Shown: one piece after another, positions 20,593 to 42,000 of the stretch
Numbering within the stretch: position 1 is the stretch's first letter
Layout of the letters: each line of letters starts with the position of its first letter
Origin: Tetraselmis striata
Taxonomy: Eukaryota > Chlorophyta > Chlorodendrophyceae > Chlorodendrales > Chlorodendraceae
DNA length: 64,000 bases
NCBI GenBank assembly: GCA_006384855.1
Contig: VCJN01000110.1
Coordinates: forward strand, 62,001 to 126,000
Reading direction: 5' to 3'
Notes under the pieces: generated by a model
Database searches by the model: none
Seen by the model: only the letters and a program-made list of their open reading frames with translations
Told to the model about the DNA's origin: nothing
Program-made: the position numbers and the translations under genes

Positions 20593-23500
20593 ATGCGGAG
20601 CCACTCGCACGGCGTCGGAGTGTGGAAGTGCGAGCACTGTGGCTACAGCGCCAACACCGCCGAGGCCTGCTCAATCTGTAGTCGCCGGCCCCGCCTCAGC
20701 TCACACTACACCGCACCGCTTCCGGCCGACCCCTACTTCCGCCGCTATGAGCCCGCCGCGGACCCGTCAACGCCGTCAGTCTACGAGCGGCTCTCCACCT
20801 CGGGTGGGGAAAGCGGCTACTATACAGGGTTCAACAGCATCACCAGCGGGCTGAGCCACTCGGAAGCCGCGTATGATTCATCCGGATGTACTGGTAATTC
20901 TCCGAACGCCCTTCCTGCCTGGGGCCCCTCCCTATCCTCAAAACCCAGCAATTTCATCTTGCCCCTACCTCCCCCCCCCCCCCCCCCCCCCCCCCCCCGC
21001 CCCCCTCTCCCGCTTGGCCATATTAGTGGCGACGTCCTGCTGCCACACCCACTCGTAGCACGTACTCGCACCTCTCCTGCCTCTGTCCCGCGGGACCTCC
21101 TCATTCGCGCGGCACATACCTCCTCCGGAAATAATGGCTATTTTGTTTGGGGTTTTTTATTGTTATAATATATTATTCATTATTGTTTTCGTCATTTTTT
21201 ATTTTTTATTGTTTGTTGCAAGTTCCCTGGTCGGTCCGACCATCAGACCCGGAAACTTAAGCTGACTGGGGCGCACAGTGACAACGAATATGTAAGACGG
21301 CGGCTCGATATCGGCCGGGCCGGGCACCAACGGCTGATTGGCAGCAGCCGGTTTAAGGTACCCTGTAGAAGGATGGTCTGGCATCGGGAAAATTCCTTAC
21401 TGCAATCGACTCTAAGGATTTTGCCACACCCGCACAATACTGGTAAACTATTGATATCACGCACCTCTGTCCACCGGGTGGCCGACCCCACCTCATGGGA
21501 TACCACGCACGATCGCGGGCTCAGTTAGCACCTCTACAGCCCTCTAAGCACGAGGCAGTGGATCAACGCGATTGTTTTCGGCCTCCCTTGTAGTAACGGC
21601 GGAGGAATGGGCGTCGCGCGAATACTCGGTGGGTGATTGGGAGAGGGTCCGCGACCGCTCCGCGCCTATCAAGATAGCACTAAATACTGTTATAAGGGTG
21701 ATACCGCACCTTCCACCTTCCACAGCCGCACAGGCGGCGGCATCACGCAACAACGGCCTCTAAGCAAGCCGCACAACCTGATACGGGGTCTAGCGTCAAA
21801 CTATAGTCTGCCAGCATGCTTTTACTACGGCAATTGTGTGCGGTCGGTCGCAGAGTGTGTGTGGGGGGGCCGGGGGGGGGGGGGGGGGGGGGGGGAGGCT
21901 GTTCCGCCCGCCGCAGAGATCGATATCGTCCCTTTACCCATCGGTCATCGGCCGCTTCCACACAGTCAAGACACCCGCCATAGGTTCACCAAGCACTTAA
22001 TTATGCCCCATGTAACTCCCCCCATGGCCTACACATCTTCTAGGACGGGTTGTTGGCGATAGTCAAGCCGTCTGTAGGAACTTCTGTGGCTAGACGCGCT
22101 GATAATGTAGCTTCCGGCGCATCTGCGAGTCTGCGACCTACCCGTCCGTCGATCGGAACCACGCTCGCGCGCACCGGATACTCGACAACAAGTGGCCAGC
22201 TCACCCTAGCAAGGCCTAGATCTGGGCTGTAAGTTGCGCCAAACAGCTTAGCAAACGGTTAACGTCGTGAAGTTCTGCCAGGAAAGGTAGGAAACATGGC
22301 CAAACGCTTGTGTGGCCACTTGGGTAATAGTGCTCGTAACATGTAGGATTCTTGTTCCCGTAATAATCCTTACCGGGAATCTTCTTCCTGGGGGCGGAAA
22401 AATGGCTCAGCATGTTTGCTCGCTTCCTGCAGGCTCCCGCCTCACCGCCCTGCCTGACAAGTGCCGCAGCTGCTACTCCCGGGACACCGACGTCACCCGC
22501 CTGACTGCATGTGGTTGCAAGATATGCGCTGAGTGCCTGAGGCCGCTGCTCCGGCTCAGCCCGCATGCACCCCTGGAGCGCCTATTTGCACCCTTCCACT
22601 GCCCAGGTGAGGGGCTGCATAGCCCCGCTGAATCCTTGAGAGGGTGGAGGGTGCTCAGCAGCTGCCTGAAATGACGGAGAGGCGTGGCTCACACTTGGGT
22701 GGCGGCGGCAGGCTGTCGCCGGGAGATGGCGGGCGCCGATCTGCAGGCCCTGTTGGGCGAGGAGGGCGACAAGTTGGCTCAGGGCTACGTGTTTGACATT
22801 CTGGAGAAGCACGTGGTGGAGTCCGGCGGGCGGGGGACACTCTGGCTGGGGGACAACAACGTCATGACGGGCGTCAAGATGTGCAAGGCCGTGCTGATGT
22901 TGGAGAACGCGCTGCACGACCCAAGGTAGGCCTGCGTCCGCTGCAGCCATAGGGTGAGGGCACCTCGTGCTGCGCAGGGTGAACAGGGCAGGGAATGGCA
23001 TGTCCGAGGTTGGGTGAAAGGGGATGTCTGGGATCCCGGGCGGGAGGCAGGGGGATTCTCGGCTCAGCACCTGAACACTGCCCCCTGTAGCCTGGACACC
23101 AAAGGTGGAGGAGAGCCTGCGCACGCTACGCTGGGAGCTGCACGGCATCCGCACCAGCAGCGTGCTTGGCGGGCGGTTGGGCGAGTACAGCGCGCGCGCG
23201 ATTCTGTTCCGCGGCGGCATGCACAAGCTGCTGCGCGCCTGGCTGTCCCGGGCGTATTGGATCCTGGAGGGCAAGATGACACTCGATGGCATCGACGAAA
23301 CGGTGCGCTGGCCCGTGTTTCCTTTGTGTTGCTCCCGGATTGCAGTGGATGATGACGCGTCCAGGGGTTCAGACTCGTTCCCTACTTTCAATCCACAGAA
23401 TGTTGATACTTGGATTGAATATGCATATGCGTACGCGATGAATCGGGGGATTAGTAAGCATTAAGGGATGTTGTTGCCCTGCGCTACCTGATACCTCTGG

Positions 23501-26500
23501 CATCATCCGGCAGAGCGCACACGATGTAATCTGTCTGGGCGCCGACCCTGAAATTTGCCCACGGGCGCTTGTACCGTGAGGGCTGCCCATCACCCGCAGG
23601 GTGCATTCTGTCTGTTTCACCCCTGCGTCTAATCGCCGGGGCGCTGCAGGTCCTGCTGCTCATCAGCGAGATCGCAGAGAGCCCGGCGCTGCTGCCGTGC
23701 CTGGAACAGCCCACCAAGACCAGTTACAATGCGCCAGTGCCCGACGAGTATCTGCGCGCCACGTCTGCGATGCTGCAAGAACGGCGCTCCGTGTACATCG
23801 ACCTGCGCCAGCTGCGGAAGTTAGCTTGGAACCTCATGGAGAGCGGCTCCTGGTAGCCCCCCCCCCCCCCCCCCCCCCCCCCCTTCCTACCTTCAGGACC
23901 TTGATTGTCAACTTCTCTCCCTCATCTGCGAGCACCCGCCATCCCTTCTTCCTGGCCCCACACCCATTCCACTGATGGAAGCTGTGCGGCACCGCCACAG
24001 GCACACTGCCAGTCGCAGCCTGCAGCGTTTCTGTGATGATGTGGTCCACACCGCAAAGGCCGTTAGTCGCGCTGTCAGAGAGTCTCAAGACCGCCGCCAT
24101 CACCAGGAGCAGCTGGAGCAGAAGGCAGCCCCAGGCGCGCCGGCTGCCATCCCTCCGGCTCCTCAGCAGCCACGGCCGCAGTCTATCGTGGACCTTCAGG
24201 CAGAGGAGCAATCGCCAGCGCTCTCATCTCCATGCAATGAGCGGGAGAGCGCTGCCCGCTTGCTGTTCTCGGACGCCCACGCGCAGAGGGCCTCCCCGCC
24301 GGCGGCCCCACTGTCAGAGCGGCAGCAGGCGGCTCAGTACCTGTACTCCGACAAGGGCGCGCTGCCGCTGCAGCCAGAGGCCTGGGCCCCACAGACGCCA
24401 CCGCCACTGCCACCTCGAGCATCGCCCAGCGGAGGGGTGTCGGAGAGGTACCAGGCGGCGCAGCTGCTGAATGCAGACAAGGACAAGCACTACACCGTCT
24501 CCGGCCCCTTGCTCCATCCACCCAGCAACACACAGGCCCCCACCAGCTCGCAGAGCATGGGCCACCACCAGAACTCCTCCCGGCCTGCGGCGCCTGATGG
24601 CGTTCCCGACGGCTACAGCTCTGGCAGCAGCACCCCCACGCCGCTCTCATCAACAGGTGCGCAGCCCTCCGTGTTCTTGAGCCTGCGTCATGCTGCCAGA
24701 CCAGCGCAAAGGTTGAGCGTGTTGTGGCGTTCCTTTCAGCATGCCGCATTGAAATGTGCCCCCCACTCAGTGCGGCTCTGCTGTTGTGTCTCCGGCTTGG
24801 CGCTGCTCACAACGGGAGGCACCGAACTGACCCCACCAAATGCTTGCTGCTCGCAGGCCAGCAGCGGACCTTCCCACAGCGGATGGACTCGCTTGACCGG
24901 GCGGCTGTCGAAGAGGACATCATCCAAAGCGTGATCCAGATGTCGATAGCCGAGCAGCCGAGCGAGGCAAGCGACACCGCATTCCGGCGGCGTGGGGGGG
25001 GGGGGTCAGCGCACGCGGCTGTTGATGGGCAACGCTGCTGCAGTCTCCAAAGTCGACCTAAACATTCGTGCATGTGTGTTTGTGTGCGCCCTCCAGGTTG
25101 AGCCAACACCAAGCTGCGCCGCCAAGCCGCCGCCTGCGCCCAAACCCAGCACCGCGAGCAGTATACCCATCCAAGTTCCTTCCCGTGAAGTCTCTACCCA
25201 GATCCCAGGTGAGGAACACAGGCCGGGGGGGGGGGGAAGCCCTGCGCTGTGTGGCCACTCCTGACCCGGTGATTGTCTTCAACGCGTGTCGATGTTTCGT
25301 CGCGTGCGCCCAACACCCCTCTGAATGACTCTTCAGGTCCGATCCGCAGCAGCTCCCTTGACAGTGCCGAGGAGGCCCTACTGGAGGTGGCAAAGCGGGA
25401 GTCGATGATGCCTGCGCCGAAGGTACGCGACCTGGCCCAGCGGCGGCCCGAGCATTTGTCTCAGCGCCCGCGATGGAGCGACTGCATCCCCGGCTGTCTT
25501 CACTGCTCGTTGCGGTGTGCCGTTGCAGTTGCCGCGAGCAGACAGCTTCACCAAGGCGGACCTGGGCAACAGCTACCTCCGGGAGCAGGCGCTGGTGGGG
25601 GAGCGCCTGCCGCTGCAGAAGCTGATTGAGAGCTGCGGACGGGAGCTCGCCCGGCGCCTGAGGGAGCTGGAGCCCAGGTTTGCCGATTGGCGGTCCATCA
25701 ACGGTGACGGCAACTGCTTCTACCGCTCCTTCCTCTTCCTCTTGCTCGAAGGCCTCCTCGGGGACCGCAGGCAGGCACGGGCGGTGCACAGGTGCGCAAG
25801 CCCGCCCGGTCACGCTCACAGCTGCGCCGCTGACGCTAGCAGCCCATTGCACATTTATTAATCGCACTGGACCACGCAGCTGAATGATGCTGAATGATGT
25901 CCACCCATCCTTTGCACAATCCGCCCTGAATCAGCTACATACTGCCGTACGGTCCTCACTGCAGGTGCTTCCATGCGCATGCAGCACCCCATGTCATGTC
26001 TGTCCGCCATCGCGTGCCTGACGCAGCTCTGTCTCTGCCCAACAGGCGCCTCGAAAGGGTGAAGGACAAGATGCTGGCGACGGCGCACGGCGAGCAGGAG
26101 TGGGAGGGCGGTGCTCTGATGCTGGAGGGGGTGCGCATACCCCACCCCCTTTTGGCCCTCTGAGCGACGGCTGATTACATGGCTGCGGCGCGCTTTGTCG
26201 CCTGGTATGGGTTGGTGTGCGCTGAGAGGTGGCACTGAGTCGCGCAGCGATTGCCACGGCCGCAGATGGTTCAGGAGATCAGTGAGGGCCGCGTGATCCT
26301 GTTCCGCCTATTGATAAACATGAACGACCGTGAATTTGCGGACCCCATGATCCTCTTCCTGCGCCACATGACCAGCTGGGAGATGCTCAAGCACGCGGAG
26401 CGCTACGAGAACTTTATTCTGGAAGAGGAAGAGGAGGACGAGCGCCGGGGGGGCCGGAGGCAGACTGCGGCGGCCCGGGACGACGACGCAGGGGCAGAGG

Positions 26501-26790
26501 GCGAGGCAGAGGCGGGGGCGGCCACGCAGCGCCGCCGCATGCAGAGGCACTGCCGCAAGTTCGTGAACCCGATGGGGCAGGAGGCGGAGGAGTGGCACAT
26601 GAACGCGCTGAGCCGGGCGCTGCAGGTGCCTATCAATGTGGAGAGCATCGGCGACCGGGACCGGTCGTTCAGCATCCGGATGTGGCACGGCGATGACAGC
26701 GGCAGCCCCGAGTCGCGCCTGCCGGCTCCCAACGTGCCGGCCTGGCTGCTCTACGTGCCAGGCCACTACGAGATCATCTACCCTCGGTAG
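20593..26790 (+). CDS. NZF-RING-UIM-otubain protein: ubiquitin-editing enzyme
   Basis: Twelve exons join in frame: 20,593-20,893; 22,433-22,606; 22,712-22,925; 23,116-23,302; 23,650-23,852; 24,001-24,656; 24,857-25,020; 25,097-25,208; 25,337-25,422; 25,529-25,791; 26,046-26,130; 26,266-26,790, giving 989 residues. A RanBP2/NZF finger (WKCEHCGYSANTAEACSIC, residues ~10-28) comes first. A RING follows with Cys111, 114, 127, 129, 132, 135, 157 and 160; Cys129 replaces the usual His, and the last Cys pair is built across the 22,607-22,711 intron. Residues ~160-360 are an unrecognised helical region. A disordered part holds three SERxxAAxxL-like repeats. UIM-like helices lie at ~597-611 and 682-693. 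The peptidase C65 (otubain) domain has INGDGNCFYRS (Asp759, Cys762) and C-terminal GHYEIIYPR (His982). Known otubains cleave ubiquitin chains or block E2s, and RINGs recruit E2s. Least certain junctions are 22,925/23,116 and 25,020/25,097. An in-frame ATG at 20,389 would add 68 residues. Confidence 0.85.
20894..22432 (+). other. Long first intron of the otubain/RING gene
   Basis: 1.54 kb between donor gtaatt and acceptor cctgcag; the phases match (one base before, two after). It holds a 28-base C tract (20,971-20,998) and a 24-base G tract (21,872-21,895), and no other gene that I can support. Confidence 0.7.
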
Positions 26791-28276: not shown

Positions 28277-29823
28277 CTAAATGTTATGGACAGTTTGCGG
28301 GCACAGCCGAGGTTTGGCAGTGTGAGCGGGGCGGCAGCGCGCGGGGTGTAGAGGAGGCGGAGGAATGCGGCTGGAGAGTGCGCACTCGATGGTGGGGATG
28401 ACCGACGCGATGAACTTGATGAAGAGTACGAGGTAGTCCTTCACCTCGATCTGCTGCCCGCCCGCGCCCAGCCGCTCCACCAGCCGCTTCATCACCTCCG
28501 CGTGCTTGCAGGGGTGGATGGACGCGGCGCGCACGGCGGGGTTGTTGGGGTGCGGGTCCACCGTGATCGTCTTCTTCGCGTGCTCCTCGCTCACGTCCTG
28601 CAGGATCTGCGCGCGGGGGGGCAGCCGTCCTTTCCGTCAGCCGCCTGGGTAGGGGCTGGCAGTTGCCAGGTCCCCCCCCCACCCCCCACCCCCACCCCCA
28701 CCCCCACCCCTTTCCGCCGCGACCTTTCTAAACGTCTTCAAGCACTATGTTACATCACACGGGTGGGTGTGATGTAACGAGCATCAGCACGGCAGTAGGT
28801 AGGAGAAGGGGTCGGGTGCTCGTGCCAGTAGGAGTGATCGTCTGGCCTGAATTCAGGTAACTTTCCTGGTTGCGACACGTCTCCCACCTGAACTGAACTC
28901 GAGCCTAACGGAGGGCTGAAGCGGACTGGGCAATGAGGTGCCACGACATGACGCAATCACGTCACTATGATGGTGGTCGTGTCGTCATGCCCGCATGGTG
29001 ATTCAAGCATGGCGATGGCTGTTGTCTGCAAACCCAAGTCCTTCAGCAAACCCTCGTCCTCTGACCCTCTCGGCGCCCTATCCCTCCCCGCTGCAGTGCG
29101 GCCCCTCTGCACGCGCACAGCCTCTGCGTCTCCCATGTACAGCAGACCTACAACCAATCCGAGCGCAACTATATATATATATATATATATATCATCCATC
29201 ATACATCTATGTGTATGTATGATCTAAGTACATACATATGTACGTACATACATATATACACATGTTCTATATATATTCAGGCCACGCACCATCGCGGGCG
29301 GCAGCGGCTGCTTGGACTCGCTGTAGCCGACGAGCCAGAAGCGGGGGGTCTGGTAGTACTTGTCGTAGCTGATGGAGAGGTCGTAGGTGCGCGTCTTGAC
29401 GATGCCCGCATTCTCCGCCCCCGCGGCCTCTGACGGCAGCGACCCGCCCACCAGCACCGCCTGCCAGGGCCGTGCAGCGCAGGCCAGGTCAGGTCAGCTC
29501 TTCATCCGCTCCCGCCGCCGCGAGGACTGCTGACTGCGCCCGGGAGGCTCAGCGGCCAGCAAAGTGTTGCTCTATATACTTCCAAAAGCAGAAGACTCGT
29601 CTAAGCTTAGGAATGCTGTCCCTGGACCTACTACTGGGGGAGAACCAGATGGACCAGTCTCATATGGCCACGCCACAGATGGACCAGTGTGATTCCCAAT
29701 TGCTGCCAGGTTGCTGCACTTTGTCATCCCGCCACCTTGTTTACGCATTGCAATGTCATTCCCACCTTAACGACACAATGGGCAGTGCTGGCCAGTAACG
29801 CTGCGCGTGCTTATTGCCCCGGA

Positions 29824-39032: not shown

Positions 39033-42000
39033 CTAGCAGGCAGGCGCGCCGCCGCTGTCCAGCGCGTCCTGCTGCCGCATGAGCTGCCGGCGCAGGTGCA
39101 CCGCCTCCCACAGACTGTGCGAGTCCGCGGTGTCTGCGGGGCTCTGCACGGTGTCCACCGCCAGCCGCTCGCCGCGCACCGTCACCGCCGCCAGCAGCTC
39201 CGTGAGGTGGCGCAGCGCTACCACCCGCGCCGCCGCACTGCCGAGCTCCACCCGCCGCACCTCCACAGCCACGGCCGCCTCATGCCCCTCCCGCCCCGTT
39301 GCGGGGAGGCTGGCAGGCACCACCACCGCCGCCGGGGTCCGTTGCGCCCGGACCCCATCCTGCCCTGCCAGCAGCCGGGCCACCACCACGGTCGCCGGCA
39401 GGCAGGCCGGCATCACCTCCCCGCGCCCCATGCCGATGCGCTGGGCCAGCAGCAGTCCGCCGATCACCGCACTCAGGCCAGTGGCATGCGCGCCCGTGCT
39501 GCCGGGAGGGTACGACCCGTGCACGCCCTGCGGGAGAGTCACTGCCTCCGGCAGCGCCGTCCGGCAGCCCTGGCTCACCAGCACCCACTGGAACAGGTGC
39601 AGCATGGCGCGGCCCATCACCAGGGTGGCCGGGAAGTAGGTGTACTCCCCAAAGACGTTGCAGCCGTTGTCAGCCCACTCCGCCAGGCAGCGTGACAGCG
39701 CGCAGCACAGCACCTCCAGCTGGGCGGCGGAGCGGCTGGGCAGTGCGCCCGGCGCACCGAGGCACCCGGCAGCGGCAGAGAACAGCAAGCGGCAGCCATG
39801 GCGCACGCAGAAGGCCGCGACGCATGCTCGAGGAAGCGGAAGCGCAAACGTCGCCGACTTTCGTGCAGCGCCGTTTGCGCCGGCCAGGCGGGCTGCCAGC
39901 TCGGCCAGGACCTCGCTGTCTGATGCGTCGCCCTCAGCCGGGTGGGCGGAGTTGCTCGGCACGCGCTGCGCCGCGGACTCCGCCAGGTACAGCTCGTCCA
40001 GGCACTCTGGCTTTCCCCACCACTGCACACCAACACGGAACAGCTGCGGTGAGACCTGGGACGCATGGGTGCGGGGCGGCCACTGATGGGGCAGGGGCTG
40101 GACTTACGGGCGGTGTCGGACTCCCCGCCTGGACTCTCTGCGTGCGCACCCGCTGCACGCGCGGCGAGGTTAACGGCTCCCACGCCGCCTCCAGGCACTC
40201 CCAGTACGACGCCATGAAGCCGCACTGCGAGGCCTCCAACGCCTCAAAGACACCCCTGGCCGCGTCCTCGGACGGGCCGGCAATCACACCCTGACACACT
40301 CGGTTCAGCATGCCTTCCGCGATACCGATCATGATGGAGTAGCCGCCGACCTCCGTCATCCTGTACGGGGAGCCCGCTCGCTGGAAGGCCTCGTAAATGG
40401 TTTCCGACAGCTCGGCAAACTCCCAGCACGGCAACGAGTTCTGCAGGACGATGATGACATGAGACCCGCGGTAGGCCGTCTCGACGTCGCTCCAACCTGG
40501 CAGCCCTTCGTAGAACCTGGCGCGCGAGCGGTACACATCCCACCTCAGCAGGAGGCGAAGTGGAAAGGCGGGGCGGCTCGCGCAGCACGGGGGCAGTCAA
40601 TGGAGGCTGCTTCCAAGCGTGAGTAAAGCGGCAGGGAGTAGAAAATTGCGGCGGGGCTGAAGGGCTGGGGGAGCCTGCATGCATGTGGTCACACAGCTGC
40701 AGCGGGCACGCACTCTTTGGCCACCTGTGCGCATGACTCCGGCCTCATAAACCCCATGCTCGTGAACATCTCCTCCAGGAAGGGCTGATAAACCGCTGTG
40801 GTCTCAACGCGCCTTGCCAGGGGGAGGTTGCTGCCGCTGCTGAGGTAGGTGGCCTTGGCCTCCGGGGCTGTGCGCTTCAGCTTGGCAATGGCCTTCCGCA
40901 GCTCTCCTTGGCGAGCAGACAGCTCCTGCAACCTACAAGGTTCCAGCAGGATGGGGCAAGGAGCGGAGTCAGCACAATAGACCCCCCCCCCCCCCCCCCC
41001 CCCCCCCCCGGCGCCCTCCTGTTCGTTTCCTTGGCGGGGCTTTGCAAAATCACATGTAGCACTCTCCAGAGTGTTGCCCTCAAGATGGGTTGTGAGTGGG
41101 GGGGGGGAAGGGGGGGGGGGGGGGGCTGACCGGACCTTTCATCTAGGGTTCAAGGGGGTTGTAAACTAGGTTAAAAATGCGTTTCAGACTAATGTTTTAC
41201 AGCGTATGGTAAGGTACACGGAGGGTTCCGTGAGACTCAGGGTAGTTTCCCAGAGGTTTTTTAAGGTTTCCGGAGGGTTGCGCAAGGTGGGGTGTGTGTG
41301 TGGGGGCACTATTTTCGCCCGGACGCACCAGTTTACTTGGATGCAAGTGCGGCAATTGGAATGCAATGGAAAATGTCTTGATAGTTTGGTTTTTCTTGAA
41401 AACAATCTGACAGATGCATTTCAGACAAATTGCGAATCGATTTCGGAAAGCAGTAACGACATTGTTTGATTGTGAATTGATCATTTGGTATGGATGGGTT
41501 CAGGTTCCTTATTTTCCATTTTCGGTCGTGCCGGGTATGTTTGCAATCGGATATTCTCATCCTGGTACGAGTAGGAGTGACATCAGGATTATTGCATACC
41601 AGTACTACCGGTAATCACTAATCACTAATCACTCATGGACGTTTATTCCTATTGTCTTTCAGGGTGATTTCCTGATCGCCTTTTGCAGCTAGCTCATGTG
41701 TAACCATACCAGTCGTAGACACTCAGCAGTTGCCCGTAACGTTGTAGTTAGCGGTAGTTTCTCGTTACTTGCGCTCTTCTAATCCAAACCAGTCATCACT
41801 GATCAGCAGCATTAGCGACTACATGCAGGTCGCAGTCGCTGTCGCTGTCGCTGTAGAGGACCTTTCTAATTGTCCCTTTTTTTGGTGATTTCCCGATATG
41901 GCCTTCTGCTGCTAGCTAGCTCATGTAAATATTTAATCATCAGCAGGTGCTAAACTCGTACCGGTACTAATCGTGATAGTACCACTACTCGAGTAGTCGG

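Follow-up and report, generated by a model that had tools for sequence, protein, structure and literature searches.

An otubain protease with a RING-like finger in the green alga Tetraselmis striata, most likely a counterpart of Chlamydomonas OTU2

Introduction

The closest described system is Otu2 of the green alga Chlamydomonas reinhardtii. According to the main text on this protein (PMC8894339), Otu2 belongs to the OTUB family, is 1166 or 1174 amino acids long and carries a C-terminal otubain domain with a loop insertion as well as a ubiquitin-interacting motif (UIM). The same text gives D901/C904/H1151 as the catalytic triad and amino acids 731-1174 as the OTU construct; the domain loop of 55 amino acids is called unique to Otu2 homologues, and the plus form cleaves K48 and K63 chains. 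During gametogenesis, Otu2p (GenBank OL770090) shields the TOC chloroplast import proteins from the proteasome and protects chloroplast DNA, and this protector role requires the catalytic Cys (PMC8894339). OTU2 genes are reported there in core-Reinhardtina, their multicellular relatives and Sphaeropleales. The whole words "RING" and "zinc" are both absent from that main text, figures and supplements being outside this statement. In passages of two further sources, De Hoff et al. (2013) describe OTU2 as an otubain-related protease and mention no further domains (PMC3757049), and a 2025 review adds none (PMC12079397). In this study, I describe a gene of the green alga Tetraselmis striata (assembly GCA_006384855.1, 224 Mb) whose product has an otubain domain at its C-terminal end and a RING-like zinc finger near its N-terminus. 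The gene lies in a stretch of 64,000 nucleotides, hereafter the window, which is part of a contig of 126,327 bases (VCJN01000110.1, positions 62,001 to 126,000; C82 below). Positions are those of the window.

Results

A single spliced record joins the RING-like finger and the otubain domain

The full gene model was searched against 5.8 billion proteins and 8000 candidates were scored, among which there was one match. This record, P0001, is a protein of 886 residues from a JGI contig of 3088 bases. From exon 1b to the stop codon, the gene with its introns takes up 5.2 kb in the window; 3088 bases are too few for this, and the contig must be intron-free. It is probably a transcript contig; the comparison was made with its protein record, not with its DNA. 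P0001 has, in this order, the RING-like finger, a helical-looking region, a linker, two UIM-like helices and the otubain end. From exon 1b on, 866 of 878 residues are identical between the window and P0001, with 12 substitutions and one gap of 8 residues. Thus, the RING-like finger and the otubain domain stand in one spliced product of a close relative or strain. The features are as follows, all on the plus strand.

20593..20893, plus strand: NZF-like exon, W-x-C-x2-C-x9-C-x2-C, a doubtful first exon; its phase fits the RING exon, and it is absent from P0001
21607..21628, plus strand: exon 1b, coding part (MGVARIL plus the initial base of the codon that follows), the first exon in P0001
22433..22606, plus strand: exon 2, Cys 1-7 of the likely RING (model, P0001, Pfam)
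22712..22925, plus strand: exon 3, last Cys of the likely RING, Arg at the linchpin position, start of the helical-looking region (without Pfam match)
23091..23302, plus strand: exon 4 as implied by P0001; the phase-keeping alternative begins at 23116
23650..23852, plus strand: exon 5, without family match (model, P0001)
24001..24656, plus strand: exon 6, linker with three ER-x2-AA copies (Glu codons at 24239, 24317 and 24443)
24857..24966, plus strand: exon 7, UIM-like helix 1 (EEDIIQSVIQMS, 24910-24945), followed by a GC-AG intron
25097..25208, plus strand: exon 8, linker (model, P0001)
25337..25422, plus strand: exon 9, UIM-like helix 2 (EEALLEVAKRES, 25369-25404)
25529..25791, plus strand: exon 10, otubain domain with catalytic Asp (25706-25708) and Cys (25715-25717)
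26046..26130, plus strand: exon 11, otubain domain (model, Pfam, P0001)
26266..26790, plus strand: exon 12, otubain domain with a charged loop of 41 residues (about 26419-26541), catalytic His (26764-26766) and the stop codon

A first-pass annotation, made from the letters of the window, had proposed 12 in-phase exons and a product of 989 residues. A phase-keeping chain of 12 exons could indeed be rebuilt (20593-26790, plus strand), although its product has 971 residues; the catalytic Asp741, Cys744 and His964 of the rebuilt model are the 759, 762 and 982 of the annotation minus 18. Ten of its introns are GT-AG and one is GC-AG (24967-25096). The GC-AG intron after 24966 is supported at the protein level, as P0001 reads QPSE directly followed by VEPTP. 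From exon 2 on, the junctions of the model are reproduced in the P0001 protein with a single exception. Upstream of exon 2 it takes another course: P0001 begins with MGVARILG, encoded from 21607-21628 within what had been taken as intron 1, and joins exon 2 in the same phase. A possible acceptor, TTGTAG, lies just upstream of this exon 1b (AG at 21592-21593). The junction that differs is that of exons 3 and 4, where P0001 has eight more residues than the phase-keeping model, and these residues fit an acceptor at 23089-23090. At about 23091-23116, where exon 4 begins, the window and P0001 differ by one base in register, and the assembled sequence does not read through; the cause may be an error in the assembly, a difference between strains or a gene copy that is broken. 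Following P0001, the single 12-exon product is thus given up in two places, its first exon and the junction of exons 3 and 4.

Could the RING exons (22433-22606 and 22712-22925) and the otubain exons (25529-26790) be separate genes that were wrongly joined? The annotation had named transcripts that divide them as the finding that would overturn it. The one spliced record unites both exon sets and agrees with the model at all junctions but one from exon 2 on, so that they are one gene and a wrong joining is extremely improbable. Two narrower searches and one family search gave nothing beyond P0001. With the otubain part as the query among long proteins, P0001 alone was found among 7577 candidates, otubains shorter than about 490 residues being outside the length range. 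None of 3932 candidates (proteins of about 165-525 residues) matched the first 300 residues of the model at E<=1, and NCBIfam had no match for P0001.

The otubain domain and its kinship with OTU2

The Pfam family Peptidase_C65 (PF10275) matches the model with E 9.2e-34 and P0001 with E 7.3e-34 (117.8 bits against a cut-off of 24.3). In P0001, the match begins at residue 615 of 886, and the catalytic residues are kept, with DGNC at 656-659 and His at 879. As judged from the sequence, this is certainly an otubain domain, and the Asp/Cys/His triad assigned to it in the annotation is conserved. The best solved otubain relative is 6k9p (E 1.4e-22). Between ENFI and QRHC, the domain has a loop of 41 residues, against 8 in 6k9p. 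Another otubain with the canonical motif RGDGNCFFRSF is encoded elsewhere in the same genome (contig C1101). Since a separate canonical otubain exists, the gene in the window is not the ordinary otubain, and the possibility of an ordinary OTUB1 orthologue was ruled out.

The annotation knew of no relative with this architecture and had missed C. reinhardtii OTU2, which appears to be the closest one (PMC8894339). The two have in common a long N-terminal part, a C-terminal otubain domain with the Asp-Cys-His triad and an extra loop in this domain; Otu2 also has a UIM, where the present protein has two UIM-like helices without a Pfam UIM match. The loop is 55 amino acids long in C. reinhardtii and 41 residues long here, and its sameness is judged by description, not residue by residue. 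A separate ordinary otubain, also counted among the likenesses, is present in the genome here. No OTU2 sequence was among the results of the three protein searches, and the kinship therefore rests on this layout. On this basis, the gene is most likely the OTU2 of this alga.

Near-identical otubain-like frames were also found on two other contigs (C2429, L004 808-2223; C2145, L005 808-2223). They have TGNS at the DGNC position, as placed by eye, and are perhaps dead otubains.

The eight-cysteine element is likely a RING

The finger encoded by exons 2 and 3 has the spacing C-x2-C-x12-C-x-C-x2-C-x2-C-x21-C-x2-C in P0001, that is, eight Cys residues in the spacing of a cross-brace. When the first 330 residues of P0001 were shuffled 20000 times, this pattern never arose. 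When the isolated piece of 92 residues was compared with Pfam, all five families at E<=1 were RINGs (best E 0.0058). Among nine shuffles in which the Cys residues were kept in place, one gave a RING match (E 0.27) and four gave other weak matches; one shuffle had both. In the PDB, the best match of the piece is RING1 of RNF31/HOIP (E 0.015), and the 12 matches at E<=10 include four to RING ligases, three of them to RNF31 and one to RBBP6. The element is likely a RING by these sequence comparisons, and the complete eight-Cys RING of the annotation holds as a pattern, with Pfam RING matches that all stay below the family cut-offs.

RINGs that bind ubiquitin-conjugating enzymes (E2s) usually have a hydrophobic residue (Ile, Leu or Val) in the first zinc loop, while Pro in the last loop and a linchpin Arg or Lys after the last Cys are traits of active RING ubiquitin ligases (E3s). 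Here, the first zinc loop reads C-R-S-C, with Ser, and the last loop reads CPGCR, with Pro within CPGC and Arg right after the last Cys. Another possibility is that the element is a structural zinc module, which would serve dimerisation or the folding of the following region without binding an E2. The sub-threshold RING scores, the first loop devoid of a hydrophobic residue and the lack of relatives of the first 300 model residues (0 of 3932 candidates at E<=1) fit such a module. In contrast, the positions other than Cys are also RING-like, given five RING families for the real piece against a RING match in one of nine Cys-fixed shuffles. I regard a purely structural module as unlikely.

UIM-like helices and the linker

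The annotation had also noticed two UIM-like motifs. Both fit a pattern of two acidic residues, a hydrophobic residue, a small residue and Ser, which was loosened after inspection to include both sites. The two sites lie in the linker at P0001 residues 512 and 579, and a third match lies at 286 in the helical-looking region. At least two such sites occur in 0.14% of shuffles of P0001 residues 301-596. When Ala is required in the pattern, 512 is lost, while 286 and 579 are kept. Pfam gives no UIM match at E<=1 for either the model or P0001. The motifs thus stand as UIM-like, under a pattern chosen post hoc.

In the linker (24239-24490), three copies of ER-x2-AA-x2-L were seen (P0001 residues 355, 381 and 423). 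Three ER-x2-AA copies arose in 0 of 5000 linker shuffles, the pattern having been chosen after inspection. The repeats could be a repeated binding helix.

Is the NZF exon a part of the gene?

The pattern W-x-C-x2-C...C-x2-C of an NZF finger is found at model residues 11-29; the six frames of the window contain it once, and shuffling the exon 20000 times never produced it. The pattern of the NZF finger that the annotation had named is therefore present, but the exon is absent from P0001, the one spliced record, and the model has no zf-RanBP match in Pfam at E<=1. The exon has a coding score of 0.01 in its own frame, and the two alternative frames score -0.43 and -0.28. This places it above the introns and below 10 of the 11 remaining exons, which served to train the codon table and are favoured by it.

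One explanation would be two isoforms that differ in their first exons, a long one with the NZF (20593-20893) and a short one with exon 1b, as in P0001. The NZF would then add a further contact to ubiquitin or to a partner, and this is compatible with the other explanations weighed here. The NZF exon and exon 1b both join exon 2 in the same phase. Besides the rarity of the pattern among shuffles, the best PDB match of the NZF exon is the NZF of RNF31/HOIP (E 0.12). On the other hand, the sole spliced record lacks the exon, and no NZF-bearing fragment was found among proteins of about 165-525 residues. An intron of 1539 bases would have to follow the NZF exon, whereas the remaining ten model introns measure 105-347 bases; with 804 bases, however, the one behind exon 1b (21629-22432) is long too. 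Moreover, ubiquitin-binding NZFs have a TF dipeptide, which reads GY here. The two-isoform explanation is possible, with the odds somewhat against it, and the same degree of doubt applies to the existence of a message that includes the NZF. The NZF is doubtful as a part of the gene product and is at best an alternative first exon.

A peptide used for an antibody against C. reinhardtii Otu2p (residue 69) has its best match in the model at residues 86-99, in the terminal part of the NZF exon. With p 0.11 within exon 1 and 0.30 for the whole protein, this likeness does not reach significance, and a second window, at residue 564, comes close with a score of 19 to the 20 of the best one; the peptide match was not used as proof. 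For a second peptide, from the Otu2p loop, the best model window is at 866, inside the loop, with close runners-up elsewhere; this was not used as proof either.

Genomic surroundings

Twenty coding-looking stretches of C82 were scanned. They comprise 10 of the window's 27 listed stretches (eight of which belong to this gene) and 10 of the 17 listed outside it. Five of them had a Pfam match: two ATG3-like, two Rab3GAP catalytic subunit and one sialyltransferase-like. A linkage to a mating-type locus was considered and set aside: no known mating-locus gene is among the five matched stretches in this partial scan, and none of 10 RWP-RK matches was located on C82.

The ATG3-like gene lies downstream on the minus strand at 28367-29490 (Autophagy_act_C in two stretches, E 8e-21 and 1.3e-11). 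The Rab3GAP and sialyltransferase-like exons are elsewhere on C82. At 39045-40952 on the minus strand there are coding-looking stretches, one with the top score of the window (140.9), for which Pfam gave no match at E<=0.1. Some RWP-RK matches form equal-scoring pairs on different contigs (C175/C1294 and C1623/C1794), a hint that the assembly contains duplicated or haplotype contigs.

Discussion

What might this protein do? Kinship with OTU2 suggests, by analogy, that it is a deubiquitinase that protects chloroplast-envelope proteins from the proteasome. From the domain layout, I infer the following activity and clients. The otubain domain would cut ubiquitin chains off client proteins, as C. 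reinhardtii Otu2p does, and the pair of UIM-like helices that directly precedes the catalytic domain may hold the ubiquitin chain. The RING would dock the protease to an E2 or to a partner RING E3 (e.g., an SP1-like one) at the place where the clients are ubiquitinated, and it may have weak ligase activity of its own. An OTU2-type deubiquitinase of green algae, with an N-terminal RING that serves mainly as a docking module, is my preferred reading, held with moderate confidence.

The annotation had seen in the same architecture a self-contained ubiquitin-editing enzyme, in which an active RING E3 would build one type of chain while the otubain removes another, as in A20. Both domains do stand in one spliced chain, the Pro of CPGC and the Arg at the linchpin position are as in active RING E3s, and the UIM-like helices could hold chains. 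However, the first loop has Ser where a hydrophobic residue would contact the E2, and the RING scores are weak. In addition, the protector role of Otu2 needed the protease Cys, and the text consulted mentions no ligase activity of Otu2 (PMC8894339). What stands of that proposal is the union of the two domains; editing itself is possible but improbable. Equally improbable is its extension to the whole OTU2 lineage, which would then be built on a chain of RING and otubain that is active both as a ligase and as a protease, its RING having gone unnoticed because it falls below the family cut-offs.

Several points weigh against the docking deubiquitinase as well. As for the records, a break or a misassembly may affect exon 4 in the assembled window, and P0001 is represented here by its protein record, not by its contig DNA. 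As for the RING, all Pfam scores are below the cut-off (17.1 bits against 50 for PF24921 and 16.7 against 27.9 for PF14634), and the whole of P0001 gives just one RING family (E 0.37). Since 8 of the 12 PDB matches of the piece are other zinc-finger proteins, the support from the PDB is weak. The Ser in the first loop, where an E2 contact is usually hydrophobic, counts here too, and an AlphaFold prediction from the single sequence of P0001 was uninformative (mean predicted local distance difference test score, pLDDT, 41.6). As for the kinship, orthology with OTU2 is very probable but is drawn from layout, not from an alignment or a tree; no recognised mating-type gene was seen among the 20 scanned stretches of C82; and OTU2 is not present in every relative, as none was found in Chlamydomonas eustigma (PMC8894339, main text).

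If the RING and the protease are both active, green algae would have a ubiquitin-editing enzyme in a lineage that, in Chlamydomonas, determines from which parent the chloroplast DNA is kept. A RING within this chain could also recruit the protease to the E2 or E3 by which the chloroplast envelope is marked, an idea that is testable. Given the likeness in layout, a part of a known regulator, Otu2, may have been overlooked.

Comparison with known systems

C. reinhardtii Otu2 differs from the present protein in its length (1166 or 1174 against 886 amino acids for P0001). A RING is recognisable here, whereas the main text on Otu2 names neither RING nor zinc, and no mating-type linkage was seen here in the partial scan. 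No natural fusion of a RING with a C65 otubain was found in the portion of the open-access literature that was searched.

RNF31/HOIP is the best PDB match for both the RING piece (E 0.015) and the NZF exon (E 0.12), neither of which is significant alone. As HOIP is a RING-between-RING (RBR) ligase, a ligase of this type was considered; it was ruled out, P0001 having no Pfam IBR match at E<=1. OTUB1, OTUB2 and the otubains 6k9n and 6k9p, which I take to be plant OTUB1, share the protease family C65 and the catalytic motif with this protein. The 6k9n and 6k9p chains are different in being about 225-290 residues long, without a RING, UIMs or a long loop. A20/TNFAIP3 and TRABID/ZRANB1 belong to other OTU subfamilies and have other fingers (A20-type and NZF, respectively) and no RING. 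Nevertheless, they too combine an OTU protease with zinc fingers in one chain, and A20 both removes and adds ubiquitin.

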